Source: Atopsyche davidsoni (taxonomy: Eukaryota > Arthropoda > Insecta > Trichoptera > Hydrobiosidae). Taken from it: a stretch of 64,000 nucleotides of DNA. Shown piece by piece: positions 1,336 through 28,499 of the stretch (positions are counted from its first letter, which is position 1; the number at the start of each line of letters is the position of its first letter). A model generated the notes under the pieces. It was not told the origin of the DNA, did not search any database, and saw only the letters and a program-made list of their open reading frames with translations. The DNA is taken from NCBI GenBank assembly GCA_022113835.1, contig JAILWY010000014.1, positions 2,232,001 to 2,296,000 on the forward strand, given 5' to 3'. Position numbers and translations under genes: made by a program.

Positions 1336-1396
1336 GATTATTCACGGTAAAAATATGAATATATAAGAGCCTCTGAAACAATGAAAATTATTCAGT
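1336..1396 (+). promoter_or_regulatory. Core promoter of gene 1 (upstream motif, TATA, initiator)
   Basis: A TATATAAG box at 1360-1367 is followed about 31 nt later by TTCAGT (1391-1396), the classic arthropod initiator, so transcription should start near 1393, 60 nt before the ATG. The 12-mer GATTATTCACGG at 1336-1347, 24 nt before the TATA box, recurs exactly at 8366-8377 before gene 2 with nearly the same spacing. Confidence 0.75.
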
Positions 1397-1452
1397 ATCA
1401 AAGAGATTGTCCTGTGTTCAAGCATCTGGAAACCGAGTAGGTTTCCATCAAG

Positions 1453-4400
1453 ATGGACTTCCATAGGAATATTCTCTTTTTCGTGTGTTTGGTGGCTGGA
1501 ATCTGCTTTGCAAGTGAGTACATCACCTTAATTTAAAGATAAAGTCATATCTTCCTCACCAGAACTGATGTCCAACTTTTGCTGCTGTTCGTTAAGTCTC
1601 TATGCATTAGTGGGTGCAGTGAAAAAAGTTGGCTTGACCTAAAAACATCTGACACAAATTATATCAAAAGCTTTTCCAATACAAAATGTTGTAATAATTT
1701 TTTTTCATTTTTATATATATTTTTTCTATTCTAATTATTAATTGAAGTGCATTAGTTCAACAAATAAAATTAAAACTACCCAAATTCTGTAGTAACGCTT
1801 CATCCATGGCACTTGATCTAAAACATTATTGTCAGGTGGGCCAGAATTTTAGGCATGGAAAAGTCTGTGTCACATTGTTTTGGTGATCAAATTTTAGTAG
1901 CATTGCATTTTTCTCAGTGCCATATTTTAATTTACAGATGGCAGACCAAGTACAACTGAAGGAGATGCAAATATAACGACTCAAGTTGGAAACAAAACTG
2001 TCCTAGTGGGAAACGGTACATTGGATGACAGTGAGCTCTCCCGGAGACTCAGGCTGTTTCCCTGGGACACGGAAAACTTCCTGTGGAATACAAACAAATT
2101 AAAATTCCAAACCGAAGGATTTACATGGGATAATAAAAATAAATATTATAAGGACAAAAAACCTCAATCAAAAAGGCAAACATCAAACAGAAAAAGGTCA
2201 CCACGGCGAAACTGCAAAAATTGTAAAAGGAGTCCAAGAGATGGTGCAAATATTGTTATAATAAACGAAAATATCCAGAAAAGCAACATTAAAAAAGATG
2301 AATCTGAATATCAATTGAATAAAGATGATGACAACTCTCAAAAAACTAAAGGCTCCCGTGTTCAGCGAAACGATAATAAGATAAGAGAACATGAGATTGA
2401 TCTAAGTGAAAATTATGATGATAGTAATGTCGAGAGCAGAAGCGTGGTTAAGAGAAAAACAATCCGCAATCATAAAAAACAATTTAACAATTTTACTAAT
2501 AAGAACGGTGAAATTTTCATCAATTCAAATACTAAAAATAGTACTAGATCAGGACACGATCAACTTCTGGATAATAAAAAAACCAGTGTTGAGCAAGTAA
2601 ACGAAGTCAGTCATGATGAATCTAAAAATAATGGCATTTTTAAAACCGAAAGGGAGTTGGATGTAACAAGTGAAAATGTTGATAATAGTAATGTTGACAG
2701 CACAAAGTCAGTGAAGATCGATGGAAATGACCTCAATTTAGAAATCAACAATAATGGAAACAGTGCTGAGTATGTAAGTGAAGTCAGTCGTGATGAAGCT
2801 AAAAACAATGACAATTTCAAAACCGAAAGAGAGTTGGATGTAACAAGCGAAAATGTTGGTGATAATAATCTTGACAACTCAAATTCATTGGTAAAGGATG
2901 GAAATGACCTCGGTTTAGAAATCAACAATAATAGAAACAGTGCTGAGTATGTAAGTGAAGTCAGTCGTGATGAAGTTAAAAACAATGACAATTTCAAAAC
3001 TGAAAGGGAGTTGGATGTAACAAGCGAAAATATTGGTGATAATAATCTTGACAACTCAAATTCATTGGTAAAGGATGAAAATGACCTCGGTTTAAAAATC
3101 AACACTAATGGAAACAGTGCTGAGTATTTAAGTGAAGTCAGCCGTGATGAAGCTAAAAACAATGAAAATTTCAAAACCGAAAGGGAGTTGGATGTAACAA
3201 GCGAAAATGTTGGTGATAATAATCTTGACAACTCAAATTCATTGGAAAAGAATGGAAATGACCTCGGTTTAGAAATCAACAATAATAGAAACAGTGCTGA
3301 GTATGTAAGTGAAGTCAGTCGTGATGAAGCTAAAAACAATGACAATTTCAAAACCGAAAGGGAGTTGGATGTAACAAGCGAAAATATTGGTGATAATAAT
3401 CTTGACAACTCAAATTCATTGGTAAAGGATGGAAATGACCTTGGTTTAGAAATCAACAATAATGGAAACAGTGCTGAGTATGTAAGTGAAGTCAGTCGTG
3501 ATGAAGCTAAAAACAATGACAATTTCAAAACCGAAAAGGAGTTGGATGTAACAAGCGAAAATGTTGAAGAAAATAATCTTGACAACTCAAATTCATTGGA
3601 AAAGGATGGAAATGACCACGATTTAGAAATTAACACTAATGGAAACAGTGCTGAGTATGTAAGCGAAGTCAGTCGTGATGAAGCTAAAAACAATGACAAT
3701 TTCAAAATCGAAAGGGAGTTGGATGTAACAAGCGAAAATGTTGGTGATAATAATCTTGACAACTCAAATTCATTGGAAAAGAATGGAAATGACCTTGGTT
3801 TAGAAATCAACAATAATGGAAACAGTGCTGAGCATGTAAGTGAAGTCAGCCGTGATGAAGCTAAAAACAATGACAATTTCAAAACCGAAAGGGAGTTGGA
3901 TGTAACAAGCGAAAATGTTGGTGATAATAATCTTGACAACTCAAATTCATTGGAAAAGGATGGAAATGACCTCGGTTTAGAAATCAACAATAATGGAAAC
4001 AGTGCTGAGTATGTAAGTGAAGTCAGTCGTGATGAAGCTAAAAACAATGACAATTTCAAAACCGAAAGGGAGTTGGATGTAACAAGCGAAAATATTGGTG
4101 ATAATAATCTTGACAACTCAAATTCATTGGAAAAGGATGGAAATGACCTCGGTTTAGAAATCAACAATAATGGAAACAGTGCTGAGTATGTAAGTGAAGT
4201 CAGTCGTGATGAAGCTAAAAACAATGACAATTCCAAAACCGAAAAGGAGTTGGATGTAACAAGCGAAAATGTTGGTGATAATAATCTTGACAACTCAAAT
4301 TCATTGGAAAAGGATGGAAATGACCACGATTTAGAAATCAACACTAATGGAAACAGTGCTGAGTATGTAAGCGAAGTCAGTCGTGATGAAGCTAAAAACA

Positions 4401-5773
4401 ATGACAATTTCAAAACCGAAAGGGAGTTGGATGTAACAAGCGAAAATATTGGTGATAATAATCTTGACAACTCAAATTCATTGGAAAAGAATGGAAATGA
4501 CCTCGGTTTAGAAATCAACAATAATGGAAACAGTGCTGAGTATGTAAGTGAAGTCAGTCGTGATGAAGCTAAAAACAATGACAATTCCAAAACCGAAAAG
4601 GAGTTGGATGTAACAAGCGAAAATGTTGGTGATAATAATCTTGACAACTCAAATTCATTGGAAAAGGATGGAAATGACCTCTATTTAGAAATCAACAATA
4701 ATGGAAACAGTGCTGAGCATGTAAGTGAAGTCAGCCGTGATGAATCTAAAAACAATGACATTTTCAAAACCGAAAATGAGTTGGATGTAACAAGCGAAAA
4801 TGTTGAAGAAAATCATGGAACTGACCTCAGTTCAGATATTAACGTTAATGGTGAAAAGAATAGTGTTGAACAATTAAGCAAAAATAGTTTCGAAAATAAT
4901 GGATCTGAGAATGAAGATAATGCTCTTGGATTAGGGAACGATCTACTTCTTGGTGATGAAAAAGTCAATGCTGAACCTGCCATTAAAGTCCCTGAAGATA
5001 TTGAAGAGAATCTGAAAAAAGATTCCTCTGAAAACAAGCTCGTGTTGGATGTAAGAGGCGAAAATGTTGATGATGGGAAGAACAATGAGAATATTGATCT
5101 TGATATTGAAATCAATAATACTTCTGACAATCATCCCCTTGATGATAAAAATAATAATCTAGAGCAAGTGAGTGAAAAGAGTCATAATGTTGAAGAGAAC
5201 TTGAAAGAAGATGTACTTGAATCTAAAAATGACTTGAAACCGAAGAACGAAAATCTTGATGGTGATGTTGATGGTTCTAGGACTAAAAGGCAGGGAATTT
5301 ATGATGATGTCAACATAAAAACAGATAATATCAACCCTGGCAACATTGGCAGTTTTCCAAACGCCCCTTGCCAAACACACGTGCATAGGGATCAGGACGG
5401 AGGAAGAGAAGATGGCCCCATTGACAACACAGATTCTAAAAGCACAAGCACCCAGCTGCTGGAAATACCTTCTGCAAAGAATAGCAATCATGGAGCTGTC
5501 CAAAATTCTGTGAGCGGGAATGATGGTGGAATCAGTGAAGTTGGTTCTGCAGAGCTTAATCAATTTGGACAGATCGTTCAAGTTGGAAAGGATCTTATTG
5601 ATCAGCTCAAGAATAATCAAAACAAAGACAAGATTAACAGTGGAAATCAGAATGCCACAGGTGGCTGTGGAGGTTGCTGGATCGTTGGCGGTAGTAATGC
5701 TAATGTTGATGTCGAAATGAAGTCCTCAAGACAAGTTTCACTAAAGTTTAAATTGAACTGGAAACATCTATAG
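1453..5773 (+). CDS. Gene 1: secreted acidic 59-residue-repeat protein (1298 aa)
   Basis: Unrecognised secreted protein. Exon 1 is 1453-1513 (MDFHRNILFFVCLVAGICFA, a signal peptide; donor GTGAGT; phase 1). Exon 2 is 1938-5773 (acceptor TTTACAG) and runs open to TAG. Mature regions: an N-terminal part starting NGRPS with PWDTENFLWNT near residues 62-72 and FTWDNKNKYY after it; a basic patch with CKNC (113-116); about 12 tandem 59-residue acidic Asn/Asp/Glu/Ser-rich repeats (about 235-970); an acidic non-repeated part; a furin-like site RTKR ending at residue 1138; and a C-terminal segment with C1264-x2-C1267 and an SLKFKLN end. N- and C-terminal parts resemble gene 2. A poly(A) signal ATTAAA lies at 5858. 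The body is probably intrinsically disordered; silk, glue, eggshell or salivary roles are possible but unproven. Confidence 0.85.
2587..4790 (+). repeat. 177-bp (59-codon) coding tandem array
   Basis: The marker TGCTGAG recurs at 2764, 2941, 3118, 3295, 3472, 3649 and so on to 4711, always exactly 177 bp apart, giving 12 full units plus a degenerate unit on the left. Units differ by single substitutions only (for example DGND/NGND, ENVG/ENIG) and no indel breaks the register. Two neighbouring units share the variant HDLEINTNG, as expected from unequal exchange or gene conversion. Confidence 0.95.
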
Positions 5774-8365
5774 AAGGTTTATTATACTAACATGAAAATA
5801 CTGAAAACCCATTGTAATCCTTTGATACTTATGTAAAATGATAATACTTTTTTGGAAATTAAATGTATTTATAAAAATATTGATATTGTTTTTAATCTAT
5901 AAGTATTCATTTATTTATAATAATAATAATGATGAAAAAGAACCTTAGGTATTAAAGTACAAATTAATGTATAATACATTCGCTCAAAGGAGTGAGTAAT
6001 TTCCCGAAGTGTTAAAAAATTTAAGATAATTAAAATATTTCAAAAATAATTTATGACCATCACTGATTTTCTATGATATTTTGGAATATAATCATTAAAA
6101 AGACAAAGTATCTCTCAGAAGGGATTAATGGGTATAATCAAAGCAATTCTTCTTCGGGTGCCTCTCACTGAGCATGTACTTATACTGAGCCAGTGTTCAC
6201 GGTTTTATTAAGGAAAATAGTGAATAATATTTATAAAATATTTTATTTAAGTTCTAGCTAAAAGTTTTATAACTACCATTCATTTGAAATCTTTTTAAGT
6301 TTTGATAACAAGTGAACTTGAAAAACCTACAATTGTAACATTGCACATGAATACTTTCAGATACTAGACAACAATAGCGTCTCTTATTACAGGTTGTTTG
6401 GTGATCGTGAGACCCTTTGAAATGGTTAATTGTTTTCAGGCTTAAAGAAAATGCAAACCTAAAAAAACTCTTTGCGATGCAAGTTTTTTTATTTCTCTGA
6501 GTGAGACAACAAACTGAGTGTTTACACACAGCAATTGCACGCATGCTTTTTGCTACCTGCTTCTACTGTTGCGGCTTCCTATCTTTATATTCCTATCTTA
6601 GATGGCTCCAACTCGTATCACAAAGATATAAAGCATTAATAACAATGCTAGAAAGAGAAACTGATTTATTAGCCATCAATAAAATTACTTGAATTATTAT
6701 TTATGTGGAAAAAATATGTGGAAGTGAATATTTTTGTTATATATGATTTACATATCTTTTCGATATCATAAATTAATAAAATATAATCAAGCCAAAGTTA
6801 TTTTATTTTCAATTAAAGGCATTTTTATTGCCTGTCAACCGTGACAAAATTAGTTCATAATAAATAAAAAAAATTATGTAATTTATATGTACATTGCATC
6901 ATAAGATAATCATTTTATAAAACTGGTGTAATATTTTCCGTTTTATTATGTAAAAATAACATTAATTTTTCATGTTTCTTTTATTTTAAGTATATTGAAA
7001 TATAAACTCTCGATTATGTATCAAATCAATATTTTCTCAAATGGATAAATAATATATTTACAATCATACTTTAAATAATCTCAAAACATGCATGACTTCA
7101 CTTGGAAGGTTATTTATATTTTATGTAGTATATATTATTTATCAGTCAGTATATTATATACATCTTCCATCTTCCATACATCATCAGCGGGCAGGTAAGA
7201 TTTTATTTAATTTTTATAAAAAGTTGCTTTGTTGTATCTCCTCGTCATATGTAAACAACATATTACATACAATAAGTAAAAATAATAATATGGCTATTTG
7301 ATACAATGTGAGGCCACCTTGGTACGGAATGATAAACGCCTTAAAGCAATAGGTTAAATAAACTATAGAATGGCCAGTTCGCATCTTCAAGCGGAATAAA
7401 AACATTTTTTGTTTTTATTTTGGGTCCCAAGAAAAATGTATCAAATATATCATAAATATTTAGGAGGAATGAAATCTTTGAAACCTTAGATTGCTACTTG
7501 ATACGGAGTATAATTTGACCCGAATCAAGTATCTAGGTAATAGTTAGGGCTTCATATTTATTATAGTAATGTTAAGGTATATATTAGAGTAATATATAAA
7601 ATATACAAATTGATTGATTCGATTTTGTATTTGCAATAATACCCATCTCCACACTTTTTCGTGGCCGAGTAGTTATCACGCTTTCTTACTGTTAGCCGGT
7701 ACCGTGAAGAAATGAGTATTTTTTAAAATTCTTGATGTGTTCAAGTAGAAAGGAAACATTTCAAGAGTACACTTATCCTCCTTGTATATAAACAAGTGTA
7801 CTCTTGATGATATTTATCAATATATAAAACAAGGCAAATACCAAAGATGTACTAAGAGGGTCAGTTCTGATTGCTTTAAGCTTGTCTCACATATTACTCA
7901 GACAAAAATACAGTTTTTTTTCTGGTTGTCTGTGTGGCTGGGAAGAGAAGCAAGGGACTCGTCCCGATGAGACGAATCAAACGGGTCAAGAAGACAAGAA
8001 ACCGCTAATGAGGCTGCTGCTAAAGACAGACGACTCTGTATTCTACTAAATGTTGGAGACTTCCGACGAAGTCTACAACATTCAGCAGAACACCAAAGCT
8101 GGTCATGATTGCCCAGCAATGCGCGAGCAAAAGCAATACTGATGTATTTCATAAACAACCTAATACATATGCCATTTTTCAATATAATTTATTGCTTTCG
8201 ACAGCTTGAAAACCATCATAAATGTATATACAAGGACACACATTGGTGTATGTTTTTAATAAAATCTTATCAAGTTAATAATTCAAATTTTCTATTTCAT
8301 TTTTTATGAACATGTGTTGATATGTATTGAAACTGTATAAATGTCCATGCAAATCATTTTAGTTA
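5774..8365. other. Intergenic, AT-rich, with repeat debris
   Basis: No gene is supported. About 6155-6215 is a copy of a dispersed repeat (CCTCTCACTGAGCATGTAC type) also seen near 9455, 37127 and 45090. At about 7662-7680 a GTGGCCGAGTAGTTATC stretch resembles a tRNA A-box, perhaps a SINE remnant. A more GC-balanced island at 7915-8130 looks inserted, possibly transposon-derived, but I cannot name it. Confidence 0.5.
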
Positions 8366-8398
8366 GATTATTCACGGCTGATTGTGATTATAAAAAAT
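8366..8398 (+). promoter_or_regulatory. Promoter of gene 2 (shared 12-mer plus TATA)
   Basis: GATTATTCACGG (8366-8377) is identical to the motif before gene 1, and a TATAAAAAA box starts 23 nt after the start of the motif (24 nt in gene 1). No TCAGT initiator is evident at the expected start near 8420. The ATG is 126 nt from the motif, against 117 nt in gene 1. Confidence 0.6.
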
Positions 8399-8491: not shown

Positions 8492-11400
8492 ATGGACTTT
8501 CGGATAAGTCTTCTTATCCTTTATTTCGTGGCTGAAAATTGTCTAATCTGTAAGTAATCCATAAACATCCTACGCTCAAGGATAATCTCAGAGTTTTCGC
8601 TAAAATATCATAAAAGTTAATGTCATAAAATTAGATAAGTGCTTTTTATCTTGATATATTATTTTACAAAGCAATATTGCTAATAAGTGATACAAGAAAG
8701 TTGAAATATTTTTATTCTTAAAGTTGGCAAAAATCACGAGTTTTGGTTCTTGTGCTGTGACTATCTTCAAGGTTTCAAAGGATATTTATGGTTCTAATTT
8801 ATCATAAGTGGATAATTTTTTTCTTGTTTGGTGTTGAAATAACATATCCGTTTACATGAATAGTTGGAAAATTCACACTTCAAATTGATTTCAAGCTAAA
8901 TGAATCTGAAAGACGAGATCAACTCTCCTTCCATTGTTAATGTCTTTTTTACAGATGGTAGACCGAACGGGATAAAAACTGTCAGTAAAGAAAAATGTAG
9001 CTGTTACGAGGACGACATTTTAAGGCCGAAACATCCATGGGATATGGAGCACGCTTACTGGGACACTGCTTTATCAAAATATATACCCAGAAAATTGGTC
9101 AGCAACAGTAATTGTAAATGTGATGTACCTGAGCCAGCTTCTGGAGATTATGGTTCTAAAAAAGATCCCACAAGAACAAAAACGATTCTCAAACCAGATA
9201 AGGGAGACAGACCGGAAAAACATGTGCCAGCAGAACAACAACGTATTTCTTCAGCACCTGGGCATCAGCAGAACAATAGGACAACAGAAAAACCACAACA
9301 TGCAAAACCAACAGACCGGAGTTCAACTGCACCAAATCCAGGTATTTATTGTTTAAAATATACCTCAGCGGCATTCAAAGCACCACTTAGCGATTTTTGT
9401 ACCACTTGGCACACGGTATTTTGACTTTAGTACTGGTTTGATATTCAGGATATCTTTAAGTGTCTCTCCTCAGGTTGGTGACTATCTCACTGAATATATT
9501 TCTGTCTATTCATGATTTTCTTCTAGAGAATAATAAAGTAATGGCAAAGCTTAGTAAGGAAAGGATTGGGCAGCAGCAATATGCAGACCTTTCCTTAAAG
9601 GACCCGGAGACACACTTCACTTAGGGTATATGAGTATAAAACTCATCTACATTTTTACAAGTTAAAAATCAACGTAAGAACAAAATTTTTGATAATATTG
9701 AGGAAGAAATGATCGGTACTTTAGTACAATATTAAATAAAAATACTTACTATTTTACTAAATATTTTAAATGCAAATATTTAATTTTAATTTGTCAGTAA
9801 ATTAAGTAAATTCCAGTAAAGTTTTGATCAAATCTGAAAAACCGAAATACTGAAGGATTTTGTTGTTGGAGTATATTTTATTTAAATCCATAGATGACGA
9901 AAACACTACCATGGCAAATGACGAGCAGCACTGCACAGAAGAAGAAAATATATTTCGTTGGAACGACGAAAAAGAAATTTACGAAAGACGCTGCAAAGGT
10001 GAAAATTCTGCAAAGAAACAACCACCTTTCCCCAAGACAACCACTCGTGGCATGACTGCAACCAGCAAGTCGCCTAGTCGCAATGAAAACCATGCAACCA
10101 CAAAACCTACAAGTAAGACATATACGATCTAAAAAAGATTCGGTATTACCAGTGCACTACAATTTAATCACAAAGAATCTCCTTCAACAAAATATCCAAT
10201 AACCAATCAAGTAATTGTACTATCAGTAGAAACTTAATCATCATGAGCTCCCTCCCTATACTTAGTCTTTGGTGTTATGAAAAACATAAAACAATGAAGA
10301 AATATTACAATTGATCTAAATAAATATGTCAATATTCATGATTGTTTGTATTAACAGGTAGCCCATCGAACAAGGATATATCAGAGGGAAAAGAATTAAA
10401 AGACTGTAAAACTGGATATGAACTTCGTTTGAATAAGGAAAAATCCATTTATGAAAATATCTGTACAGACAAACCTATAGTTGAAAGCCTAACAACCAAT
10501 AAACCTACAATTGCTTCAAGCACCACTCGAAATAGTCTAACTACCACCACTACGGAATCACAAAGCCAAAATGAAAATACTTCAAACAATAAACCTGCGA
10601 GTGGTACGAGCACCACTCTTAGAAGTCCAGTAACTTCTACTTTGAACCCACAAAGCCAAAATGAAAATACATCAACCGATATGCCTGCGAGTGGTACGAG
10701 CACAACTCTTAGAAGTCCAGTGACCACCACTATGAACCCACAAAGCCAGAATGAACATACTTCAACCGATAAGCCTGCGAGTGATACAAGCACCACTCTT
10801 AGAAGTCCAGTAACCAGCACTTTGAATCCACAAAGCCAAAATGAAAATACTTCAACGGATCAGCCTGCGAGTGATACGAGCACCACTCTTAATAGTCCAG
10901 TAATCACCACTACGAACCCACAAACCCAAAATGAAAATACTTCAACCGATAAGCCTGCGAGTGGTACGAGCACCACTCTTAGAAGTCCAGTAACCACCAC
11001 TTTGAACCCAGAAATCCAAAATGAAAATACTTCAACCGATCAGCCTGCGAGTGATACGAGCACCACTCTTAAAAGTCCAGTAATCAGTACTACAAAACCA
11101 CAAACCCAAAATGAAAATACATCAACCGATAAGCCTGCGAGTGGTACGAGCACCACTCTTAGAAGTCCAGTAACCACCACTTTGAACCCAGAAAGCCAAA
11201 ATGAAAGTACTTCAACCGATAAGCCTGCGAGTGGTACGAGCACTACTCTTAGAAGTCCAGTAACCACCACTTTGAACCCAGAAATCCAAAATGAAAATAC
11301 TTCAACCGATCAGCCTGCGAGTGATACGAGCACCACTCTTAAAAGTCCAGTAATCAGTACTACAAAACCACAAACCCAAAATGAAAATACATCAACCGAT

Positions 11401-11994
11401 AAGCCTGCGAGTGGTACGAGCACCACTCTTAGAAGTCCAGTAACCACCACTTTGAACCCAGAAATCCAAAATGAAAATACTTCAATCGATAAGCCTGCGA
11501 GTGATATGAGCACCACTCTTCAAAGTCCAGGAACCACCACTCTGAACCCACCAATTCAAAATGAAAATACTTTAACCAATAAACCTTTATTTGGTATGAG
11601 TACCACACGTGGAAGTCCAGTAAACACCATTACGATACCCCAAAGCCAAAATGAAAATACTTCAACCGATATGCCTTCAAGTGGTACGAGCTCCACTCTT
11701 AGAAATCTAGTAATCACCACTTCGAACCCACAAACGCAATATGTTTCCACCACAACCGAGAATCCAACAACTGAGTCATGTTTTGCAATTCCTAGCATTA
11801 TTCCTTCCATCACCGAGATCCCTTCCATGCCCTCCCTCAGCCCTGCAGGTAATGGGACCTCCGCAGGCCTTATTGCAGGGCCTCCGGAGTGTATCATTTG
11901 TCCAATGAATGGAAATAATGTAAATGTTAGTTTAGAAACAGTTGAAGTGTCTAACTTTAAGAAGATGACGCTGAGGTTCAACTTAAACTTATGA
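8492..11994 (+). CDS. Gene 2: secreted mucin-like protein with Cys modules (766 aa)
   Basis: Four exons, all joined in phase 1: 8492-8549 (MDFRISLLILYFVAENCLI, signal peptide), 8955-9341, 9894-10112 and 10358-11994 (TGA). Exon 2 starts YGRPN and carries CSC, PWDMEHAYWDT and CKC, matching the PWDTENFLWNT segment of gene 1. Exons 3 and 4 each carry a short module, HCTEEENIFRWN...IYERRC and DCKTGYELRLN...IYENIC, so they look like duplicated symmetric 1-1 exons. The rest is a Thr/Ser/Pro-rich array of 30-residue units, expected to be heavily O-glycosylated, then a C-terminal segment with CIIC and a LRFNLNL end that aligns with the end of gene 1. AATAAA follows at 11999. Mucin-like secreted coat, silk or salivary protein; exact role unknown. 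Confidence 0.8.
10570..11750 (+). repeat. 90-bp (30-codon) coding tandem array, Ser/Thr-rich
   Basis: About 13 in-frame 90-bp units of the type NENTSTDKPASGTSTTLRSP followed by a TTTLNPE-like stretch. Higher-order order is visible: a 180-bp pair (DKPASGTS then DQPASDTS) recurs at about 10920, 11100 and 11280, which implies duplication of multi-unit blocks. Outer units are more degenerate than inner ones, the usual pattern of arrays evolving by unequal exchange. Confidence 0.9.
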
Positions 11995-13426: not shown

Positions 13427-14583
13427 ATGCGTAATAGAGTTGTGCTGGCAGGTATATGCCTTGTAATCGGGCTAAACTCTGTTGGTAAGCAAAACTGACA
13501 ATGTTTTAAATAAAAAGTTATAAGCTATTTTGAATAAAAAATGTTAAATTTATCATATATATTTTATAGTTTAATAAATATTCAATAATTAAACAAATAT
13601 TTATGTATACCTCAACATACATGGTTAGAAATGTATTATTTATTTATTAATATCTGAAGATTAGTTTTGATTAGTTATGAGTAAAAAATATACTCTTTAT
13701 AGTCATTGTAATAGTTTATTATGAAAAAATAAAATGAATGGGGTACATTGTTTTAAATTAATTAAAAATATTGTTGTAAGGAAATATTAAAAGAAGATAT
13801 ATTTGCTTCATAGATTCGCGGTCCTTGAATAAACCGACAAAGATATTTGTCAATCTTCACAAGGATGGCAAGCATGGAGGTCAGTATAAGGATGGAACAT
13901 TAGGAGTTCTGGCTAATGTCCTCGTTCTGAAGAATCACGAAGATCATAAGGATATCATCGCTGTCCTAGGCTACCAGGAAACAAACGACCGACAAGACGA
14001 AGAGAGTAGCAATAGGAATCGAAATAAAGATGAAAGATATGAAAATGGAGGCGACGATAAAACTGGAGTTGATAATAAATTCAGAAATGAAGATGACTTT
14101 AAAGTTATTACTAGACATGACTATGGAGATGATGAAGTGGTTGATGATGGATTAAAAAATAGACGAGAAAATGTGAAATATGACTATAAATACGGAAGTG
14201 GAGATGACTTTGGAAATAAACGTGGTGTTTATAATGGACTTGGAAACGGACGTGGCAACGCACATGATCACTTAGGAGATCATGAATTTGAGAATGGATT
14301 TGGAAATGGGGGTAAACGTGGTATTTATATGGAAGACCATGAAGCTGATTACAATGGGCCTGGCTTTGGATATGTAAATGGATACGGCAATAAAGATGGC
14401 TATAAAGATAATTCCAGACATGAAAATGGTGTAAATAAAAGATATGGATTTGAAAGGGGAAATGACTGGAGAAACGTAAATGTAGACGAATATAAAGTTG
14501 ATGGAGGTGGCAACGTAGGCGACTATGGATATGGACTTGACTATGGATACGATAATAGATATGGCAACAGAGGGGTATGGTAA
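13427..14583 (+). CDS. Gene 3: secreted Gly/Asp/Tyr-rich protein (275 aa)
   Basis: Unrecognised secreted protein. Exon 1 is 13427-13484 (MRNRVVLAGICLVIGLNSV, signal peptide; donor GTAAGC; phase 1). Exon 2 is 13814-14583 (acceptor CATAG), ending TAA. The mature N-terminus begins DSRSLNKPTKIFVNL and contains GTLGVLANVLVLKNHEDHKD followed by IIAVLG; this aligns with gene 4 and appears to be a small conserved domain. The rest is low complexity, rich in Gly, Asn, Asp and Lys, becoming Tyr-Gly-rich at the end (GYGLDYGYDNRYGNRGVW). There are no cysteines in the mature part. AATAAA is at 14686. Probably a structural secretion; the function is unknown. Confidence 0.8.
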
Positions 14584-15010
14584 CAATGGACGTTGTTGAT
14601 ATGGTGATCGTACGTTGCTATGCAGTGGTTGTAAAATTGTTTTTGTTTTCAAGAAATAATATATTTAGGCTGATTTGATATTTTTAATAAAATATTAATA
14701 TAATACAAATAAAAATAAGTTACTTGCAAATCCCAACCTTTACTTATAAAAAAATTGTTTTATTATTAATTTCTAAGTATATCATTAGAAAATCATTTAC
14801 ACATTGATCGATGATCTTTTGATTCCATACTCACTGTATGAGTCGACGGCTGAATAAATAAAATAAGATAAAATATTTGTTATAATTTGATACGTAACTT
14901 TAAAACGTTTTGTCACAATAAAATGTTGAGTGCCATCGCTAGAGTCGACCTCACAGCCATGGCCCTGCTAAAAATATATATATACCATGATTAATTATTG
15001 CCTTTAGGGC
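14584..15010. other. Gene 3 3' UTR and spacer
   Basis: The first ~110 nt are the probable 3' UTR up to the AATAAA at 14686. The rest is AT-rich with no supported feature. Confidence 0.5.
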
Positions 15011-16218: not shown

Positions 16219-19048
16219 ATGATGCACTGTGGAGCCGTGTGGTGCCTGCTGGCTGGGCTCTGCCTTGTCGGTAAGGATATTGAGTTTCAAATTAAATATA
16301 TACAATGGCCCAAAAGAATCATCCGAAAATTAAATCAAATCATATATAGGGAAAATTTTCGACATGCTCCAATTTGAGAAAATTCTCACCTATCAGATAC
16401 AAGCGTTTAGAGATGCTACCACAAATAATGTAATATATAAAAATACTTTTTTTTTTATATAACAATAAAAAAAATTATATTTTTAAAATAAAAATCATAA
16501 AATGTGCAATAAAAATAAAGTGAGAGTGTTCATATTTGTAGATATATGAGTTTTTACTTTGTCAGATGCTCGTAATTTGGCTGGAGATACGAAAGTTTTA
16601 ATCGATCTGAATGACGACAACTACCCTGGAGAAGTCAGTGGAACCTTGGAAAAAGTTGTTGTTCTGAAGAAACACGATGACCACGAAGATGTCATTGGAG
16701 TCATTAGCGTCAACGCCGGTGATGAAAATAAAGACGACAATTGTTACAGTTGTGTAGATGGAGAAAATAACAATGAAGGCAACGGTAGAGTCCAGAGTTC
16801 TAATGGTCAACAAGGTTGCTGTAAGGGAAATGGAAATAAAGATGGCAAAAACAATGGTGGTTATCACGACAGCAATCTTAATGGAAACAATGACAGAAAT
16901 GACCGTGATGGAAAAGGAAATGTTAATGATTATGACAATAGAAGTGACAATAACAATAAGATTAGCAGGAATTATGAGAATTACAGAGAAAAAAACAGTG
17001 GTTTCAATGAAAATCGAGATGGAAATGGATATGAAGGTGGTACTAATGGTTGGGAACGTAACAATAACAACAATGAAAAAAGTAATGGTAACAACAATGG
17101 AGGTAAAAACAATGCTCTAAACAACGGTAACAATCCAGGGGATCCAAAAATTGCCAATAATTACAATGAGAATTATATTGAAAGAGATAACATTGTTTTT
17201 AATGATAAACAAATTGAAAATGCAATTATAAATAATGCTTACACAGAAAAAGGTCACGAAGATAACAGTGATAATGGAGACAGATTCAATGGTCTATCTG
17301 GTAACCAAGGTGAAAACAAAAATGAAAATGATGGTGGCAAATTGTTACCACCAGTAGTAGGTGAAAACAATTTTTCTAATGGAAATCAAGGAGAAAATGG
17401 AAATAAATATAGTAATGATAGTAGTGAAGGCCAAGAAAATAGCAGCGCAAATACTGGGGTTGGTAATGATAACGATCGTGAAGGTGGAAATAATGAATCC
17501 AATGGAGACACAAATAGAAATGATGTAAATAATGTAAAAGAAGCAGTTCAAGAAACTAACCGAGAAGGGAATAACAACAATAGGGGAAATTATGATTATG
17601 AAAATAATTTAGATCGGGGAAGTTACAATACTATCAATGCAGGTGGTTCTGATAATAATTTTGGAGGCGAAAGCAATAGTCATAATGTTCGCTCAGGTGA
17701 AAGCGATAACAGAAATAGTGGTGGCAACACAGGAGCTCAACAAAATAGCAATACCGCCAATAAAGTTTTCAATGACAATAATGATGGAAATGCTCCAAAA
17801 AGTGACCAAGGAGGAGACGGAAACGAAAATGAAATCATCAGTGAAGGAGTTCGAGAAGATGGAAATACAAACAATGGAGGTAATAATGATAACAAGATTG
17901 AAAGCAGGAAAAATGACCAAAAGAGTAACCAAGAAGGAAATGGAAATAAATATGAAAGTATTGTTAAAAAAAGTCAAAAAGATGACTATGACAGTGAAGG
18001 TGGTAAAAATAACAATGGGGATAAAATCAATGCTCCAAATACAAACCAAAAAGGAAACGAAAATAAATTTGAAAGTAACAATAGAAGAGGTCAAGAAGAT
18101 GGTAACGGAATCAATGGAAGTGGTGATGATAATACTAATGGGGGTGTAAAAACCGATCTTCATACTTACCAAGAAATAAATGAAAATGTAAAAAATTATA
18201 TCAATGGAGAGACTAGAGAAAATACCAATAAAATCTTTGTAGATGGCAGAGATAAAAATGATGGAAGCGGAGACAATGTTTTTAATCTAAATCTGAATGG
18301 TAATGGAAATGGTAGAGGAAGTTGGGATGAAGTTAACAACAACAATGATGGTGGTAGTAGTAACAATGCTCTTGTCGGTAACCGAGGTAGCGAAAAAAAT
18401 ACAGAGTATAGTCACGAGAAACAATATACTAAAAATTTTAATAGTTATGATGCAGGTAACAGATACAAAACTATTGGAGGTGGAAATAACAACCTTAATG
18501 GAAATCGAGGTAGTAACGGAAATGAAAAACGTGGAGGCAACAGAAGAAGTCAAACATTTGGAAATAACATACACATTACTAAGAAACAAGGTGGCAACAG
18601 AAACATAAATAGCAACGGCAGTCAGAGAAGGGGTTATTATAATGATGGTGCTTATGGTAATTTCTACGGCGACCGAGGTATAGGAGAATACCAAGGAAGA
18701 TGGTTTTCAGATGGTGATTATGCTGGAAGAAATAGAGATGGGTTTAGAAAAGAATACGGATCCCAAGATGAAAATGGAAGAGAAAATAGAAGAGGCAGTC
18801 TATCTTGGAATAGTGGTAGCATAAGAAGAAGATACCGAGGCGATGGGGTAAACAGTGGTGGGTGGGATAATGGATACAGCTACGGTAACGGTTTTCAAAA
18901 TAGAAAGTACGGTGGTTATGAACGAGGGTACGGAGATGGATACAACTTTAGTTATGGAACTGGCAATGGTCCTCAAAAAAACCTTGGAGCTGGTGCTGTG
19001 GGCAGCAACGGAAACTACAAGAAGAGCTATCTGGTGGTGGTACACTAA
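16219..19048 (+). CDS. Gene 4: secreted Asn/Gly-rich protein (844 aa)
   Basis: Paralogue of gene 3 in its N-terminal domain. Exon 1 is 16219-16270 (MMHCGAVWCLLAGLCLV, signal peptide; two adjacent ATGs; donor GTAAGG; phase 1). Exon 2 is 16566-19048 (acceptor TCAG), ending TAA. The mature protein begins DARNLAGDTKVLIDL and has GTLEKVVVLKKHDDHEDVIG, matching gene 3. A small Cys cluster follows (CYSC, then CC). About 700 residues of irregular Asn/Gly/Asp/Glu-rich sequence come next, without a strict repeat period, then a Tyr/Gly/Arg-rich tail (GYERGYGDGYNFSYGTGNG) and SYLVVVH at the end. AATAAA is at 19079. Probably disordered and hydrophilic; a silk, glue or coat component is plausible, but the function is unknown. 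Confidence 0.82.
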
Positions 19049-20840: not shown

Positions 20841-20878
20841 AAATCTGCTCCTCCAGCATCACCAGCCCCGCACCCATT

Positions 20879-21534
20879 ATGCAGACCACCCGAGTATACT
20901 TGCTGTGCCTGTTCCTGGCGATCGGAGCTTATTGCATCAGTGAGTATCTATGCACGCAGATGACAATGTAATATTTAATAAATCCAAAACCTTTACAGAC
21001 TTTGCCAACAGTGTTTTTAACTGTGGGTATCTGGAGTCAGCTGCCTACACACCATCTCACAACCAGCCAATAGTATCCTACTTTGCATTGTTTACCATGG
21101 CAAAATCATTAAAAAATATTCAAATAAAAGGGAAGCTATTGGCTAATCACCACTTGCTTGTCGGTTGTGTCGCAGTGTGTCTAGTCGGCGGTTGGCGACT
21201 AAATTTGTTGGTCAAAATGTACAGTGTATGTGGTGGCAAATATCACCCAGTCCAGGCGTGGCTCAGCCCCTTCAAGCAACGTCCGGCAATGATACTATGA
21301 TCTCGTCTTTGAACAGGTTCCGCTGGAGCCACGAAGGGCCCCCTCCTCGATGACGACAAGGAAAATAACTCCATCGAAGGCTTTGGGAGGAACGACGATA
21401 ATACCGGCAAGATAGTTTACGAGACATCTGGGGGAAGGTTTACCGAAGAACCGGTGTACGGCACGGTGGTGAAGGAGGGGTTATACCAAACCAGAGATAA
21501 CGATGCAACCGGCAACATCAAGACTTCCCCATAG
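20879..21534 (+). CDS. Gene 5: small secreted protein (92 aa)
   Basis: Unrecognised. Exon 1 is 20879-20939 (MQTTRVYLLCLFLAIGAYCI, signal peptide; donor GTGAGT; phase 1). Exon 2 is 21317-21534 (acceptor GAACAG), ending TAG. The mature ~72 residues begin SSAGATKGPLLDDDKENNS and are hydrophilic, with TGKIVYETSGGRF and PVYGTVVKEGLY; there is no cysteine. AATAAA is at 21688. The signal peptide resembles that of gene 6 (TTRV-LLC). The exon is more GC-rich than its surroundings, which supports selection for coding. Confidence 0.7.
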
Positions 21535-21699
21535 GAGATGAGTGTGCCATTTGTGATGGTGAAACGAAACTACCAGAAGATGGAAGTGATTGCATCATCA
21601 GGTCATCAAGTGTCTACTCTAATCACTTCGAATTATTTTCCTGTTTGAAATATTTATAAGTATACACCAATTTTTCGTATTTTATCAAATAAATACTAG

Positions 21700-22159
21700 T
21701 TTCAATTTTAAAGGTTTTTTTATTTATAGCTTTTCCGGGTTTTTTTTACTTGAGTTATTTAAGAAAACACATTTGCGGTATATCTCTAGATCAAAAATAA
21801 TTTTTCTCAATACTCAATTCACAGCGTCTCTTTAGTAAATAAATAGTATTTAAACATCCATCAATCAGCCCTAATAAATATTATTTAATAAATCTTCCTC
21901 ATACATTTTTAAAACGTTGCAAATATTGCAACAAAGCTTTATCTAAAGAAGGTCTAAAATCTTGATTTATACGTACAATGTTTTTCGAGCAAAGCACTGA
22001 CCGACGAGACCAAAGCAAATTGACATTTTTCTTCACAAATTTAATAGCAGGCTATGTGTTATTTATGTACAAGGCGTAAATTATTTTTCAGACTTATTAT
22101 TGATATTGGAAATAATGGTACTTCCTTCATTAAAAATTCACAAATTATATATATATATA
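21700..22159. other. AT-rich spacer
   Basis: No supported feature. The end is an (AT)n run against which the following Helitron starts. Confidence 0.5.
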
Positions 22160-23185
22160 TCTACTATAATAATAGCCATTGTGTGTTTGTATGTTTGTAT
22201 GTGTGTATGTTTCATTTTTCCGTTCTGTATAGAATATCTTAAAAGATACAACGCTGATTTTTTGCACATAAGTTAAGTAAATTTTTCCGCAGCTATGTGC
22301 CGAATTTCAAGACGATAGGATAATATTTTCATTCATAAACTTTAAAATATGCTTTAGCGAATTTCAATATGTACGAATTATATGATTCAGTTCTTCACCG
22401 TGAGAATTTCAAATTTAGAACTTTTACAAAAAAAACAAATTTTAGATGCTTCTAAGAAATTTCCAGCTTATGTCAGTTTGACGCAAACGCCATCTCCATT
22501 TTTTTATCGAAATTGCATTAGAAATTATTAATCACATCATTAATAACTCAAAATAACACCTTCTACGCACAGAAAACGTAATTAAAAAAGAATTGCACAA
22601 TTGAACGTGATAAAGACTGCATCAAATAAAGAACAGTGCAGTGAAAAGTGATGCGTTGTTTGTGACACGAAATGTGACATAAATGTCAAGCAATGAGTTG
22701 GAAGGAAAACGTGAGCAGCGTCTTCTTAAAATTCGAGTACGCGCATCGACCTCAAGACAAAAAAAAACTGATGCACAGCGAACGCTGCGTTTGTCTTCGG
22801 ATTAATTAGTGTGACCTGTCGATTCTGCAATGCTTTACATTATCAAGCAGAAAACCCATCAGATGGAAAGTTCAACAGTTCAAGTGCACAAAGATAAAGT
22901 GAAACTACCAGCAAGGCCTATTTCCCCAGTATATTTAAAGGATATTTATAATGTAAATTTCAAGAGAAAAATAAGATCATACAATAACAGTATATCTTTT
23001 GCATCAATGGGAGCTAAATTAACAGTGGGCCACTCTGCTTCAAAGTTGAAGGCCAAGTATATTACAGAACTTTGCACCTTCATCCAACTGATGGTACAAA
23101 ATTAAAGCATTATTCATCTTATTATGTTCAAACACTATCGCATCGTTCATCAAATACGTCATTTTATGACGGGCTACATTGCTAG
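22160..23185 (+). mobile_element. Helitron copy A (1026 bp, with decayed replicase pieces)
   Basis: The element starts TCTACTATAATAATAGCC after an A and ends CTAG before a T, the Helitron target rule. Eleven or so nt before the end lies the hairpin CGTCA-TTTTA-TGACG, the expected 3' structure. The interior holds a piece that reads KIRSYNNSISFASMGAKL (about 22965-23020), typical of Helitron replicase N-terminal regions, and an upstream piece shared with copy B. No full Rep-helicase remains, so it cannot move by itself. Confidence 0.85.
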
Positions 23186-23330
23186 TTAAAAATAATAATA
23201 GTAGTAGTTTTCTGCATTTTGATTATATTATCTATAAAATATTATGGTTATCCGTAAAATAAAAATAATTCCAGGTTTGTTAAATTCAATTACTTGCAAT
23301 TCGTAACGTTGAATTTAAAGTGTTTTTGCT

Positions 23331-23340
23331 TTTTATAAGA
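23331..23340 (+). promoter_or_regulatory. TATA box of gene 6
   Basis: TTTTATAAGA lies about 55-60 nt before the ATG at 23393, a spacing like that of gene 1. It is only 145 bp downstream of the end of Helitron copy A, so the transposon sits at the edge of the promoter. Confidence 0.5.
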
Positions 23341-23392
23341 GTGGAAATCTCTGTTTGATCCACAAGGCTCTTGTTTTTCCACGAGCATCATC

Positions 23393-23982
23393 ATGGGGAC
23401 CACTAGAGTGTTCTTGCTGTGCATGTGTCTTGTAGCGTTCATTTCCATTAGTAAGTATTTATATATATATATATATCTCAAATATATTTTTTTTCTTCAC
23501 GGCTACATTCCTATTTATTCTTAATTACTCATTAATTTGATTTTATGGACAAATCACAAGTAATCGATCACTCATTTATTCATAAGTACAGTGTTTTAAT
23601 TTTATTTTCAGAAATGTAGAAATCATTTGAGTTAAACATTCATATAAAGTCATCTCTAGCGGCGTCCCCATCTCCTTTATCCTGAGCCCTGCAAACCCGC
23701 ATGGAAAAAATGATTTAAAGGTCAATAATATAACCCAAAATAAATAACCCATTGCTTCCTCGTTCAGGTGCCAGCCGCAGCCTGGGCAAAACTGACGGGA
23801 CCGATAAGCGAGATGAGACTAAAGGTCTCCTTGGCCAACAAGACTATACTCCAAAACACGAAACCTCACGCAGAGACCATACAGACGATGATGGATCCAA
23901 TGAGCACGGTAAGAATCACAGCGGGGATTGCGAAGATAAGCCCAAGTCTCGAGGAAAATACAGGGACTTGAGTCCGCATTGA
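23393..23982 (+). CDS. Gene 6: small secreted hydrophilic protein (90 aa)
   Basis: Unrecognised. Exon 1 is 23393-23450 (MGTTRVFLLCMCLVAFISI, signal peptide; donor GTAAGT; phase 1). Exon 2 is 23768-23982 (acceptor TTCAG), ending TGA. The mature ~71 residues begin SASRSLGKTDGTDKRDETKG and are very hydrophilic, rich in Asp, Lys, His, Arg and Ser, with a single cysteine. The signal peptide and an ETKGLL/ATKGPLL stretch resemble gene 5, so these are likely diverged duplicates. AATAAA is at 23990, only 8 nt after the stop. The intron includes a short GC-rich segment (23650-23715) of unknown meaning. Confidence 0.7.
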
Positions 23983-24095
23983 AGGAAACAATAAATATAA
24001 TCATTTTCACAGTTATTCGATCATATAAAATGTTACCTTGAATATTTAAAAAAATAAAATTATATTTACTAAAGCAATTGAGTTTTTATAAATTA

Positions 24096-24805
24096 CTAGA
24101 AATGTAGCCTGTCACAGAATGACGAATCAGATGAACGAAGCAATAGTGTTTGAACATATGTTTGGCTGAATACTCGAATATCTGGGTACTCGAATTTTAA
24201 GAAGACGCTGCTCACGTTTTCCTTTCGATTCATTGCTTGACATTTGCGTCACATTTCGTCTCACAAACAACGCATCACTTTCACTGCACTGTTCTTTATT
24301 TAATGCAGTCTTTATCACGTTCAATTGTGCAATTCTTTTTGAATTACGTTTGCTGTGCGTAGACGGTGTTATTTTTTTAGGAGGCATTTTGAGTTATTAA
24401 TGATGCGATTAATAATTTCTAATGCGATTTCGATGAAAAAATAAAGATGGTACTTGTGTTATAAACTGACATAAACTGGAAATTTCTAAGAAGCATCAAA
24501 ATTTGTTTTTTTTGTAAAAGTTCTAAATTTGAAATTCTCGCGGTGAACAACAGAATCCTATAATTCGTACATATTGAAACTCGCTAAAACATATTTTTTA
24601 GTTTTATTAAATTAGTTTATGAATGAAAATATTATCCTATCGTCTTGAAATTCGGCACATAACTGCGGAAAAACTTACTGAACTTACGTGCAAAAAATCA
24701 GCGAATATCTATAGAATATCTTAAAAAATATATTTTAAGATATTCTATAGAGAATCAAAAAATGAAACATAACCACACACACACAATGGATATTATTATA
24801 GTAGA
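24096..24805 (-). mobile_element. Helitron copy B (710 bp)
   Basis: On the minus strand the element starts TCTACTATAATAATATCC and ends CATTTCTAG, flanked by A and T as expected. The 3' hairpin is CGTCA-TTCTG-TGAC. An open piece on the minus strand (about 24387-24127) begins MPPKKITPSTHSKRNSKRIA, the kind of basic N-terminus seen in Helitron proteins; it is truncated. Sequence matches copies A and C end to end except for the interior deleted in B and C. Confidence 0.85.
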
Positions 24806-25026
24806 TTATTTCAACAACTATTTATCTCGGAGACGAACCTTTAAGCAAAGCTTTGAAAATAATCAAAGATTTGTTCATAGATGGCAGTATATTAATTAAA
24901 TGTAAGTTGGAAAATTCATTACACAATTATTCCAAAATGTGATAACACAATTCATTATTTATTCAATTAATATATTATGAGTTTTTGTGCATATTTTTTT
25001 CTACACAAAGTCAATAGAGAAACCAA

Positions 25027-25365
25027 TATGCACTACCACCTTAGCCACATGTAAGTCCCACAACCTGCGCCAGGATCAGAAGAAGCCTCATACCATATTG
25101 TAAGCATGGCCTTAACTATTTTAAATAAGCATAAAAAACATAAAAAATCTTGTTAATTTAAAAAATATATATTTTAGATAATGTATTATTTTACAATACT
25201 CATAATTTTTTTTCAATATTATTGATTTCGTTTGTAACAAAATCAAGTTTTCTAAAATTAAATTGCAAGATACTTTATTTTCATGGGTTAATTTTACAAA
25301 AGTTCTAGGGGCTTTTTTTCTTTAAGAGCTACGCTTACAATACTGTGTGTGACTGTCCCCTAGAG
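25027..25365. mobile_element. Two fragments of the 15-kb MITE family
   Basis: 25027-25110 (ACTACCACCTTAGCC to TTGTAAGCATGGCC) matches the right arm, and 25312-25365 (GCTACGCTTACAATACTGTG) matches the left arm of the element at 15011-15620. The order of arms is reversed relative to an intact copy, so these are probably the facing ends of two elements, both decayed. Confidence 0.5.
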
Positions 25366-25602
25366 GACCCTGTCAGTTCGCTTCCAATCTGAAGAAGCCC
25401 TTGAAAGATGAAGGTCCTTATAAAAAAATGACCGTAATTTACTTGTCATATGGCTTTTCATATTTATGTTTATAAATTATATTTTGACATCAAAATAATA
25501 AGAGAAAAAAATTGGATAAAACATATTTATTCAAAAATTTTACAGCTGTATGATTATTTCAAGAAAATATTTAAAGAAAGTTTTCTTGCTGATGCACAGA
25601 TG

Positions 25603-25608
25603 TTTATT
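25603..25608 (-). terminator. Poly(A) signal of gene 7
   Basis: TTTATT on the plus strand is AATAAA on the minus strand, about 31 nt after the TGA of gene 7. Confidence 0.6.
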
Positions 25609-25638
25609 TACATAAAGTAGGTAAAGTCGCAATCTGCA

Positions 25639-28402
25639 TCACCAACCATTGTTGCCTCCGTTATTTCCTTCGTCGTTTCCTCCGTCGTTGCCACCGTTGT
25701 GTCCTCCGTTGGTTCCTCCGTTAGTTCTTCCAAATCCAGTACCATATCCGCCAAATCCTCCTCCGTTACCTCCGCCATTTCCTCCATCGTTGCCTCCGTT
25801 GGTTCCTCCGTTAGTTTTTCCTCCGAATCCGGTACCATATCCGCCATATCCTCCACCATTGCCGACTGTGTATCCTACTTTGGTTCCTCCGTTGGTTCCT
25901 CCGTTGGTTCCTCCGAATCCGGTACCATATCCGCCAAATCCTCCACCGTTACCTCTGCCATTTCCTCCATCGTTGCCGCCGTTGTGTCCACCGTTGGTTC
26001 CTCCGTTAGTTCTTCCTCCGAATCCGGTACCATATCCGCCAAATCCTCCACCGCTACCTCCACCGTTACCTCCGCCATTTCCTCCACCGTTACCTCCGCC
26101 ATTTCCTCCATCGTTGCCACCGTTGTGTCCTCCGTTGGTACCTCCGTTAGTTCTTCCGAATCCGGTACCATATCCGCCAAATCCTCCACCGTTACCTCCA
26201 CCGTTACCTCCACCGTTACCTCCGCCATTTCCTCCATCTTGTCCTCCGTTGGTTCTTCCTCCGAATCCGGTACCATATCCGCCATATCCTCCACCATTAC
26301 CTCTGCCATTTCCTCCATCGTTGCCGCCGTTATGTCCACCGTTGGTTCCTCCGTTAGTTCTTCCTAATCCGGTACCATATCCGCCAAATCCTCCACCGTT
26401 ACCTCCACCGTTACCTCCGCCATTTCCTCCATCGTTACCTCCGCCATTTCCTCCATCGTTGCCACCGTTGTGTCCTCCGTTGGTACCTCCGTTAGTTCTT
26501 CCGAATCCGGTACCATATCCGCCAAATCCTCCACCGTTACCTCCACCGTTACCTCCACCGTTACCTCCGCCATTTCCTCCATCTTGTCCTCCGTTGGTTC
26601 TTCCTCCGAATCCGGTACCATATCCGCCATATCCTCCACCGTTACCTCCACCGTTACCTCCACCGTTACCTCCACCGTTACCTCCGCCATTTCCTCCATC
26701 TTGTCCTCCATTATTTCCTCCAAATCCAGTACCATATCCGCCATATCCTCCACCGTTGCCTCCACCGTTACCTCCGCCATATCCTCCACCGTTACCTCCG
26801 CCATTTCCTCCATCGTTGCCACCGTTGTGTCCTCCGTTAGTTCTTCCTAATCCGGTACCATATCCTCCACCGTTACCTCCACCGTTACCTCCGCCATATC
26901 CTCCACCGTTACCTCCGCCATTTCCTCCATCGTTGCCACCGTTGTGTCCTCCGTTAGTTCTTCCTAATCCGGTACCATATCCTCCACCGTTACCTCCACC
27001 GTTACCTCCGCCATTTCCTCCATCTTGTCCTCCATTGTTTCCTCCAAATCCGGTACCATATCCACCATATCCTCCACCGTTGCCTCCACCGTTACCTCCG
27101 CCATATCCTCCACCGTTACCTCCACCATTTCCTCCATCGTTGCCACCGTTGTGTCCTCCGTTAGTTCTTCCTAATCCGGTACCATATCCGCCATACCCTC
27201 CAAGGCTACCTCCGTCATTTCCTCCGTTATTACCGCCCCTTGTTTTTCCATTCCAGAAAAATCCACCACCACCACCGTTTGTCCTGCCACCCTTCCCGCG
27301 GAATCCCGTTCCTCTTGATGTATCAGCATCTAATCAAAATAAACAAAACATTTATTTTCACAAATTCATCAGTCTCTACTGTACAGATCTATATTTTATT
27401 AGTGATTTACAATTGCGTATAGTAATTTTACTTTTAAAGTTAGTGTGAGAAACTTTAGCTGGTGGTTGCTCAACCACGTAATCAAAACTATAATAAATAA
27501 TTACTTATTAATAATTTGAATTTGCTAGTATAAAACAAATATTCTTAACAAATAAAATTCTATTTTTTTAAATACATATATATATTATCTACTATAATAA
27601 TATCCGTTGTGTGTGTGTGTATGTTTAATTTTTTGTTTCTCTATAGAATATCTTAAAAGATACAACGCTGATTTTTTGCACGTAAGTTCATTAAGTTTTT
27701 CCGCAGTTATGTGCCGAAGACGATAGGATAATATTTTCATTCATAAACTAATTTAATAAAACTATAAAATATACTTTAGCGAGTTTCAATATGTACGAAT
27801 GATAGGATTCTGTTGTTCACCGCGAGAATTTCAAATTTAGAACTTTTACAAAAAAACTAATTTTTATGCTTCGTAGAATTTTCCAGTTTATGTCAGCTTG
27901 ATATTTGAAGTACCAATTTTATTTTTTTATCGAAATTGCGTGAGAAATTATTAATCACATCATTAATTACACAAAATGTCTACGCACAGCAAACGTAATT
28001 CAAAAAGAATTGCACAATTGAACGTGATAAAGACTGCATCAAATAAAGATGCAGTGAAAGTGATGCGATATTTGTGACACGAAATGTGACAGAAATGTCA
28101 AGCAATGAATTGGAAGGAAAAAAAGGAACAAGAAAGTCCTATAATTTAAAAAAAAAATGGTATGTACCATTCATTTGTGATGAATATTTCCTAGAATAGC
28201 TTTGCTTTCGAAATTAATATCCAGTTATTCAAAATATATGTGTACAAAATGAAAGCAAATATTCATCTAATCGTTCATCGAATACGTCATTTTGTGACGG
28301 GCTACGTTTCTAGTTATAAAATAAACACGTTTAATACTCACGGATGAGGCAGACGGCGGCCACAAGGCACAGGCCGAACAGGAAGGCTTTGCTGACTCCC
28401 AT
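25639..28402 (-). CDS. Gene 7: secreted glycine-rich repeat protein (583 aa)
   Basis: Minus strand. Exon 1 is 28402-28342 (MGVSKAFLFGLCLVAAVCLI, signal peptide; donor GTGAGT; phase 1). Exon 2 is 27329-25639 (acceptor TTGATTAG), with the intron at 27330-28341 carrying Helitron C. Mature start: ADTSRGTGFRGKGGRTNGG, then a Gly-rich core of about 14 units mixing GGNGGG, GGNDGG, GGHNGG and GGYGTGFG, ending NNGGNNGW and TGA. The two exon lengths (61 and 1691 nt) keep one frame throughout. Such Gly/Asn/Tyr arrays occur in silk, glue, cuticle and eggshell proteins; the class cannot be fixed here. Antisense frames rich in Pro or Ser/Val are shadows of the GGN codons. Confidence 0.85.
25700..27230 (-). 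repeat. Coding Gly-rich minisatellite of gene 7
   Basis: About 14 units, each marked by GGTACCATAT (plus strand), spaced roughly 80-130 bp. Units differ in the number of 9-bp and 18-bp sub-repeats (GGTGGAGGT-type), so length polymorphism between individuals is expected. A 230-bp segment near 26830-27190 is nearly duplicated. Confidence 0.85.
27588..28313 (+). mobile_element. Helitron copy C inside the gene 7 intron (726 bp)
   Basis: Starts TCTACTATAATAATATCC after A and ends GTTTCTAG before T; 3' hairpin CGTCA-TTTTG-TGACG. It is the plus-strand counterpart of copy B and retains no coding frame. It makes up about 72% of the gene 7 intron and ends 28 nt from the exon 1 donor. Confidence 0.88.
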
Positions 28403-28462
28403 GTTGCTTGTCGGTTACTTGTCGGTTGCTTGATGTTGAATCTTCAATCAACAAGTTGCTTG

Positions 28463-28493
28463 TGATTCTGCTGAAGAACTCAACCCTTTTATA
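28463..28493 (-). promoter_or_regulatory. Core promoter of gene 7
   Basis: On the minus strand TATATAAAAGGG-type sequence (first T of TATAAAAG at 28493) lies 30 nt before a TCACA at 28465-28461, a weak initiator, giving a ~60-nt leader before the ATG. The leader contains repeated CAAGCAAC/CGACAAG phrases. Confidence 0.6.
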
Positions 28494-28499
28494 TGCATC

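Follow-up and report, generated by a model that had tools for sequence, protein, structure and literature searches.

Within a 64-kb stretch of contig JAILWY010000014.1 (positions 2,232,001 to 2,296,000; hereafter the window, whose own coordinates are used throughout) lie seven predicted spliced genes, g1 to g7, packed into 27 kb between 1453 and 28402 (Table 1). The first six are on the forward strand and g7 is on the reverse strand. Every model runs from ATG to stop with its splices in frame and no internal stop codon. In all seven a short first coding exon (61, 58, 58, 52, 61, 58 and 61 nucleotides from g1 to g7), encoding a peptide that is signal-like by hydropathy, is followed by a GT-AG intron of 295-1012 nucleotides in phase 1. 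This bears out the first-pass annotation, which had described seven genes with a first exon of 52-61 nucleotides and a phase-1 first intron. Its further claim of one gene architecture holds for the signal exon and the intron phase; g2 departs from it, having four coding exons and three phase-1 introns where the other six genes have two coding exons. The mature proteins are all hydrophilic, with a grand average of hydropathy (GRAVY) of -1.0 to -2.0, and contain 5, 11, 0, 4, 0, 1 and 0 cysteines from g1 to g7. Their bodies do differ in composition, as had been proposed, with the refinement that the genes are nevertheless related in pairs. At the end of g3 (14560-14620) the character of the sequence, judged by eye, shifts after a run of G, and one base less would give a Tyr/Gly/Asn-rich frame a few residues longer; this could be genuine or a fault of the assembly, and affects the last residues only.

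Table 1. Features of the gene cluster and its surroundings, in window coordinates; products are those predicted from the gene models.
Feature	Position	Strand	Description
g1	exons 1453-1513, 1938-5773	+	1298 residues, acidic (isoelectric point 4.4), Asn/Glu/Asp-rich, 59-residue repeat x 12.6
g2	exons 8492-8549, 8955-9341, 9894-10112, 10358-11994	+	766 residues, Thr/Ser/Pro-rich, mucin-like, 30-residue repeat x 13.1
g3	exons 13427-13484, 13814-14583	+	275 residues, Gly/Asp/Asn-rich, N-terminal domain in common with g4
g4	exons 16219-16270, 16566-19048	+	844 residues, 92 kDa, Asn 22.5%, Gly 16.5%
g5	exons 20879-20939, 21317-21534	+	92 residues, ~10 kDa, small hydrophilic
g6	exons 23393-23450, 23768-23982	+	90 residues, ~10 kDa, small hydrophilic
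g7	exon 1 28402-28342, exon 2 27329-25639	-	583 residues, Gly 57%, Asn 17%
GATTATTCACGG 12-mer	1336-1347	+	above the TATA-like box of g1, at -117
GATTATTCACGG 12-mer	8366-8377	+	above the TATA-like box of g2, at -126
Putative Helitron-like copy	22160-23185	+	
Putative Helitron-like copy	24096-24805	-	
Putative Helitron-like copy	27588-28313	+	inside the g7 intron
PDZ-RING protein gene	32466-51687	+	11 coding exons, spliced by eye; right of the cluster

We searched all 64 kb for signal-like exons followed by a phase-1 donor and obtained eight matches, all with a downstream frame of at least 60 codons. Seven of these sit at six of the cluster genes (g4 twice) and the eighth, a weak match, at 59472; g2 was missed by this strict scan because of a Glu within its core. 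Twenty random 64-kb replicas gave a mean of 0.9 matches, 0.2 with a frame of at least 60 codons, and a maximum of 1. In 100 random replicas of 27 kb the longest run without a stop averaged 111 codons and reached at most 167, a length exceeded by the second exons of g1 (1278 codons), g4 (827), g7 (563) and g3 (256) and by exon 4 of g2 (545). Exon 2 of g5 (72 codons) and of g6 (71), and exons 2 and 3 of g2 (129 and 73), are within chance length. The guanine-plus-cytosine (GC) content of the coding sequence is 0.53 in g5 and 0.50 in g6, against 0.29 in the non-coding DNA of the region, and the reality of these two genes rests on this raised GC content, the in-frame spliced signal exon and the exon-1 similarity described below. 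A looser scan recovered all seven first exons and chose other acceptors for g2, g5 and g6, because its rule selects the longest frame. The antisense of g7 (25725-27329, read on the forward strand) is likewise open through much of that span and would encode a Pro-rich product, and the longest-frame rule splices g6 into it; this frame is probably a by-product of GGN/GGT-type repeats. Since both strands are open here, openness does not fix the strand of g7, which is set by the signal exon and the TATA-like box. Leftward over 100 kb the looser scan gave six matches, distributed over four places and none with a frame longer than 108 codons, and rightward through 100 kb past the window three matches of at most 87 codons; no similar gene was found on either side. 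As far as a simple signal-exon scan can tell, the cluster stands alone.

The first exons resemble one another at the DNA level. Tested against shuffles that preserve the codons within three regions of the signal peptide, seven of the 21 exon-1 pairs gave p<0.01 (g1-g2, g1-g3, g1-g4, g3-g4, g3-g6, g5-g6 and g6-g7), five of them below the Bonferroni limit of 0.0024, with g5-g6 at p 0.0005 and g6-g7 at p 0.001. These seven links connect all seven genes, and the summed score exceeded 1000 of 1000 shuffles, also when the three neighbour pairs were left out. The relationship extends into the bodies of some pairs. The N-terminal domain common to g3 and g4 (z score 14.1, 33% identity) was recovered at E 8.5e-4 in a search of the genome, and no third meaningful match to it was found in the 370.7-Mb assembly. 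The next match to the g4 domain, at E 6.9 in a 432-residue frame that we take to be Nop58-like, was rejected as chance. In g1 and g2 a C-terminal stretch is alike (z 5.7), and both carry a PWD-x-E motif (p 0.009). A match of the g1 N-terminus to the g2 C-terminus (z 6.8) was set aside, as the places do not correspond. The genome search with the g1 C-terminus returned g1 itself only and so missed g2 as well, which means that relatives this distant would escape it. By eye, the starts of exon 2 are also alike, with GRPS and GRPN in g1 and g2 and with SRSL, ARNL and SRSL in g3, g4 and g6. On their sequences, the seven genes probably form a single family that arose by tandem duplication and whose bodies have diverged.

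Upstream of the genes, a TATA-like box lies at -60 to -115 in six of the seven, compared with 86 of 427 control ATGs (20%; P 0.0004, for a position range picked after viewing the sequences); g6 is the gene that lacks it. The DNA upstream of g1 and g2 is similar (z 5.4), and the 12-mer GATTATTCACGG occurs at two places only in the 64 kb, one upstream of each of these genes. Seven 7-mers are present in at least four of the seven promoters where 1.8 are expected (p 0.005), most of them TATA-like or A/T runs, and no 9-mer is common to three or more. Forkhead-like and POU-like patterns occur once each in g2, g3, g5 and g7 and were absent from the promoters of g1, g4, g6 and the fibroin light chain gene (FibL). 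The suggestion that this is a co-evolving secretory locus is strengthened by the likeness of first exons in seven of the 21 pairs, the related neighbour pairs, the TATA-like boxes and the isolation within 100 kb; the tissues that the suggestion names stand as candidates.

Three mobile element copies surround g6 and split g7. Each starts with TCTACTATAATAATA and ends with CTAG, is flanked by A and T, and carries a short hairpin close to its 3' end; from these hallmarks we presume them to be Helitron-like. Such insertions may conceivably have had a part in moving or inverting g7.

We searched for relatives of the encoded proteins. Using the N-termini of g3 (residues 1-120) and g4 (residues 1-95) as the queries from the cluster, no homolog at E<=10 was found among 5.8 billion proteins (72 and 118 word-sharing candidates, respectively), in a search that needs shared 5-residue words and that fast-evolving orthologs may escape. 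Neither g2 (residues 1-202) nor the g3/g4 domain matched any viral contig. No Pfam match at E<=1 was obtained for g1 to g5 or for the first 182 of the 583 residues of g7, and g6 gave three sub-threshold matches only. NCBIfam, searched with the g3 and g4 N-termini, g5 and g6, returned two weak matches to g3 far below the cut-off, and the best PDB matches were at E 1.3 for the g4 N-terminus and 0.57 for the g3/g4 alignment. An AlphaFold prediction of the g3/g4 domain suggested three strands at a predicted local distance difference test score (pLDDT) of 47, and is unusable as a model. No such cluster was found in the open-licence literature, with supplements outside the scope of that search.

Genes outside the cluster point to the identity of the host. 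To the left of the cluster lie frames with C2H2 zinc fingers, identified by eye. To the right, the neighbouring gene encodes PDZ and Sina-type RING domains, both of which pass their Pfam cut-offs, and its best match was LOC143910099 of Arctopsyche grandis, with 51% identity over 97% and E 9.7e-171 (five of 7994 scored candidates passed). The next match, from a beetle, had 31% identity over 71%; the gene is complete in Arctopsyche, and moth matches cover the first third only. Over the conserved part the identity to Arctopsyche is 64%, and the path to it measures 0.72, compared with 2.5-3.3 for the beetle and moths, in a tree of six rows that does not separate the window and Arctopsyche from the long-branched beetle. 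The genome also contains an L-fibroin (FibL) match of 44.4 bits (cut-off 27), with a signal-like start upstream by eye. The host is, on these sequences, very probably a fibroin-bearing caddisfly. An early moth lineage is a much less likely source; the Micropterigidae, where FibL is absent or much altered (PMC11906653), are a poor fit. Introns of the PDZ-RING gene also hold an intact intronless histone H4 gene of 103 residues (47452-47763, reverse strand) and a 194-bp tandem unit in 4.7 copies (46050-46958). Two further regions, 50100-51150 and 43430-43900, resemble by eye decayed mariner- or Tc1-type transposase genes and are candidates for such.

Known secretions offer several points of comparison. 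In Limnephilus lunatus the cadhesin (caz) genes form two clusters on one chromosome, and most have two exons, a short first encoding part of the signal peptide and a long second that is often repetitive (PMC11092239). As at our locus, they combine clustering, a short signal exon, a long low-complexity exon and heterogeneous bodies. The pseudofibroins of Plectrocnemia conspersa, which are silk-gland products, likewise have two exons, a very short first inside the signal peptide and a low-complexity second (PMC9432349). This two-coding-exon form with the short first exon in the signal peptide is found in six of our seven genes, and the seven are clustered within 27 kb. Two single proteins can be likened to ours by exon count, composition and size rather than by sequence. 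The silk protein Muc1 of P. conspersa has two exons, ~85 kDa, 29% Asn and 24% Gly (PMC9432349), and g4 is alike in its exons and its Asn/Gly richness. Mucin-like 1 of Neomicropteryx cornuta has four exons, 15.1% Thr, 13.1% Ser and a GRAVY of -1.28 (PMC11906653), beside four exons, 18.5% Thr, 13.1% Ser and a GRAVY of -1.03 in g2; it differs in being a 205 kDa product of a singleton gene, whereas g2 encodes 83 kDa. Drosophila salivary glue also brings apparently unrelated proteins together in one secretion, some of them glycosylated with internal repeats (PMC6352337), a likeness by description only and to a fly. The zonadhesin-like silk proteins are different, with Cys making up 12-17% of residues, a content not seen in any of g1 to g7.

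With moderate confidence, we read the cluster as encoding secreted, disordered structural proteins, most likely accessory proteins (coat, adhesive or matrix) of the larval labial silk gland. The first-pass annotation had named silk, glue, eggshell, cuticle and saliva together. Among these we prefer silk because the host appears to be a fibroin-bearing caddisfly and because the published caddisfly silk clusters are alike; silk gains most, and egg-mass jelly and other secretions stand as less likely candidates.

A number of observations count against a single family of silk-gland genes. In twelve of the 21 exon-1 pairs p exceeds 0.05, and the sole bridge between g1-g4 and g5-g7 is the pair g3-g6, which at p 0.005 misses the Bonferroni limit. 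Signal peptides are moreover alike by nature, and the exon-1 test compares with codon shuffles and not with unrelated insect signal exons. Upstream similarity reaches p<0.01 in only one of the 21 pairs, g1/g2. Among the repeat copies, single-base codon differences number 114 synonymous and 435 non-synonymous in g1 and 161 and 437 in g2, so that no synonymous or third-position excess was seen, as would be expected if selection acts on composition or is absent. Signal-peptide cleavage sites are enriched in phase-1 introns (PMC1626468), and the shared architecture alone is therefore weak evidence. The cadhesins, to which the likeness is judged by description and not from their sequences, are mostly Ser/Thr-rich and the pseudofibroins Ala/Ser-rich; only g2 has a body of such a kind here, and in the other six proteins the leading residue is Asn, Gly or Asp. 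Muc1 has a CXCXC near its C-terminus that g4 lacks, the cysteines of mature g4 being all in its first part.

The main alternative, which we consider rather unlikely, is that these are proteins of the egg-mass jelly or the female accessory glands, in which hydrophilic acidic, mucin-like and Gly-rich proteins would make up a swelling egg matrix. Caddisflies lay their eggs in jelly (spumaline), and the low GRAVY values and the mucin-like member would suit a water-swollen gel. Silk precedents with the matching gene form exist, however, and no caddisfly jelly protein sequence was found for comparison. Another secreted matrix, be it cuticle, peritrophic or gut mucus or saliva, is similarly improbable: signal peptides and low-complexity bodies are general traits of such matrices, but no cuticle or chitin-binding domain was found in the Pfam scan of g1 to g6 and the first 182 residues of g7. 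Chance pairing of exons, or gene decay, as the origin of g5 and g6 would agree with their short second exons, the other acceptors preferred by the looser scan and the missing TATA-like box of g6, but appears very unlikely given their exon-1 likeness to each other and of g6 to g7, their raised coding GC content and phase-1 splicing into frames closed by a stop. We give less weight to shuffling of a signal exon onto genes of different descent, since to the eye the starts of exon 2 are alike too, in g1/g2 and in g3/g4/g6.

We infer that the cluster arose from an ancestral gene with a TATA-like promoter, a signal exon, a phase-1 intron and one long exon. Promoter, signal exon and long exon would have been duplicated in tandem as one unit, and the long exons would then have diverged by repeat turnover to give the acidic, mucin, Asn/Gly and Gly-rich bodies we observe. 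We expect joint secretion of the products, in which g1 (acidic) and g2 (mucin-like) would perhaps form a hydrated, ion-binding coat, and the Asn/Gly-, Gly- and Tyr-containing g3, g4 and g7 would supply a flexible matrix open to cross-linking. A bolder and more tentative proposal is that one promoter-plus-signal-exon cassette has been kept, while the long exon was swapped or rapidly rewritten. The locus may in that case be a modular generator of new extracellular materials, and a component of caddisfly secretion that has not been described.

If the products belong to silk, seven closely packed genes for mucin-like and Asn/Gly/Asp-rich proteins would join, as one unit, the short list of known parts of underwater silk. 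The cluster would also be a clean case of wholly different protein bodies arising behind one conserved secretory exon.

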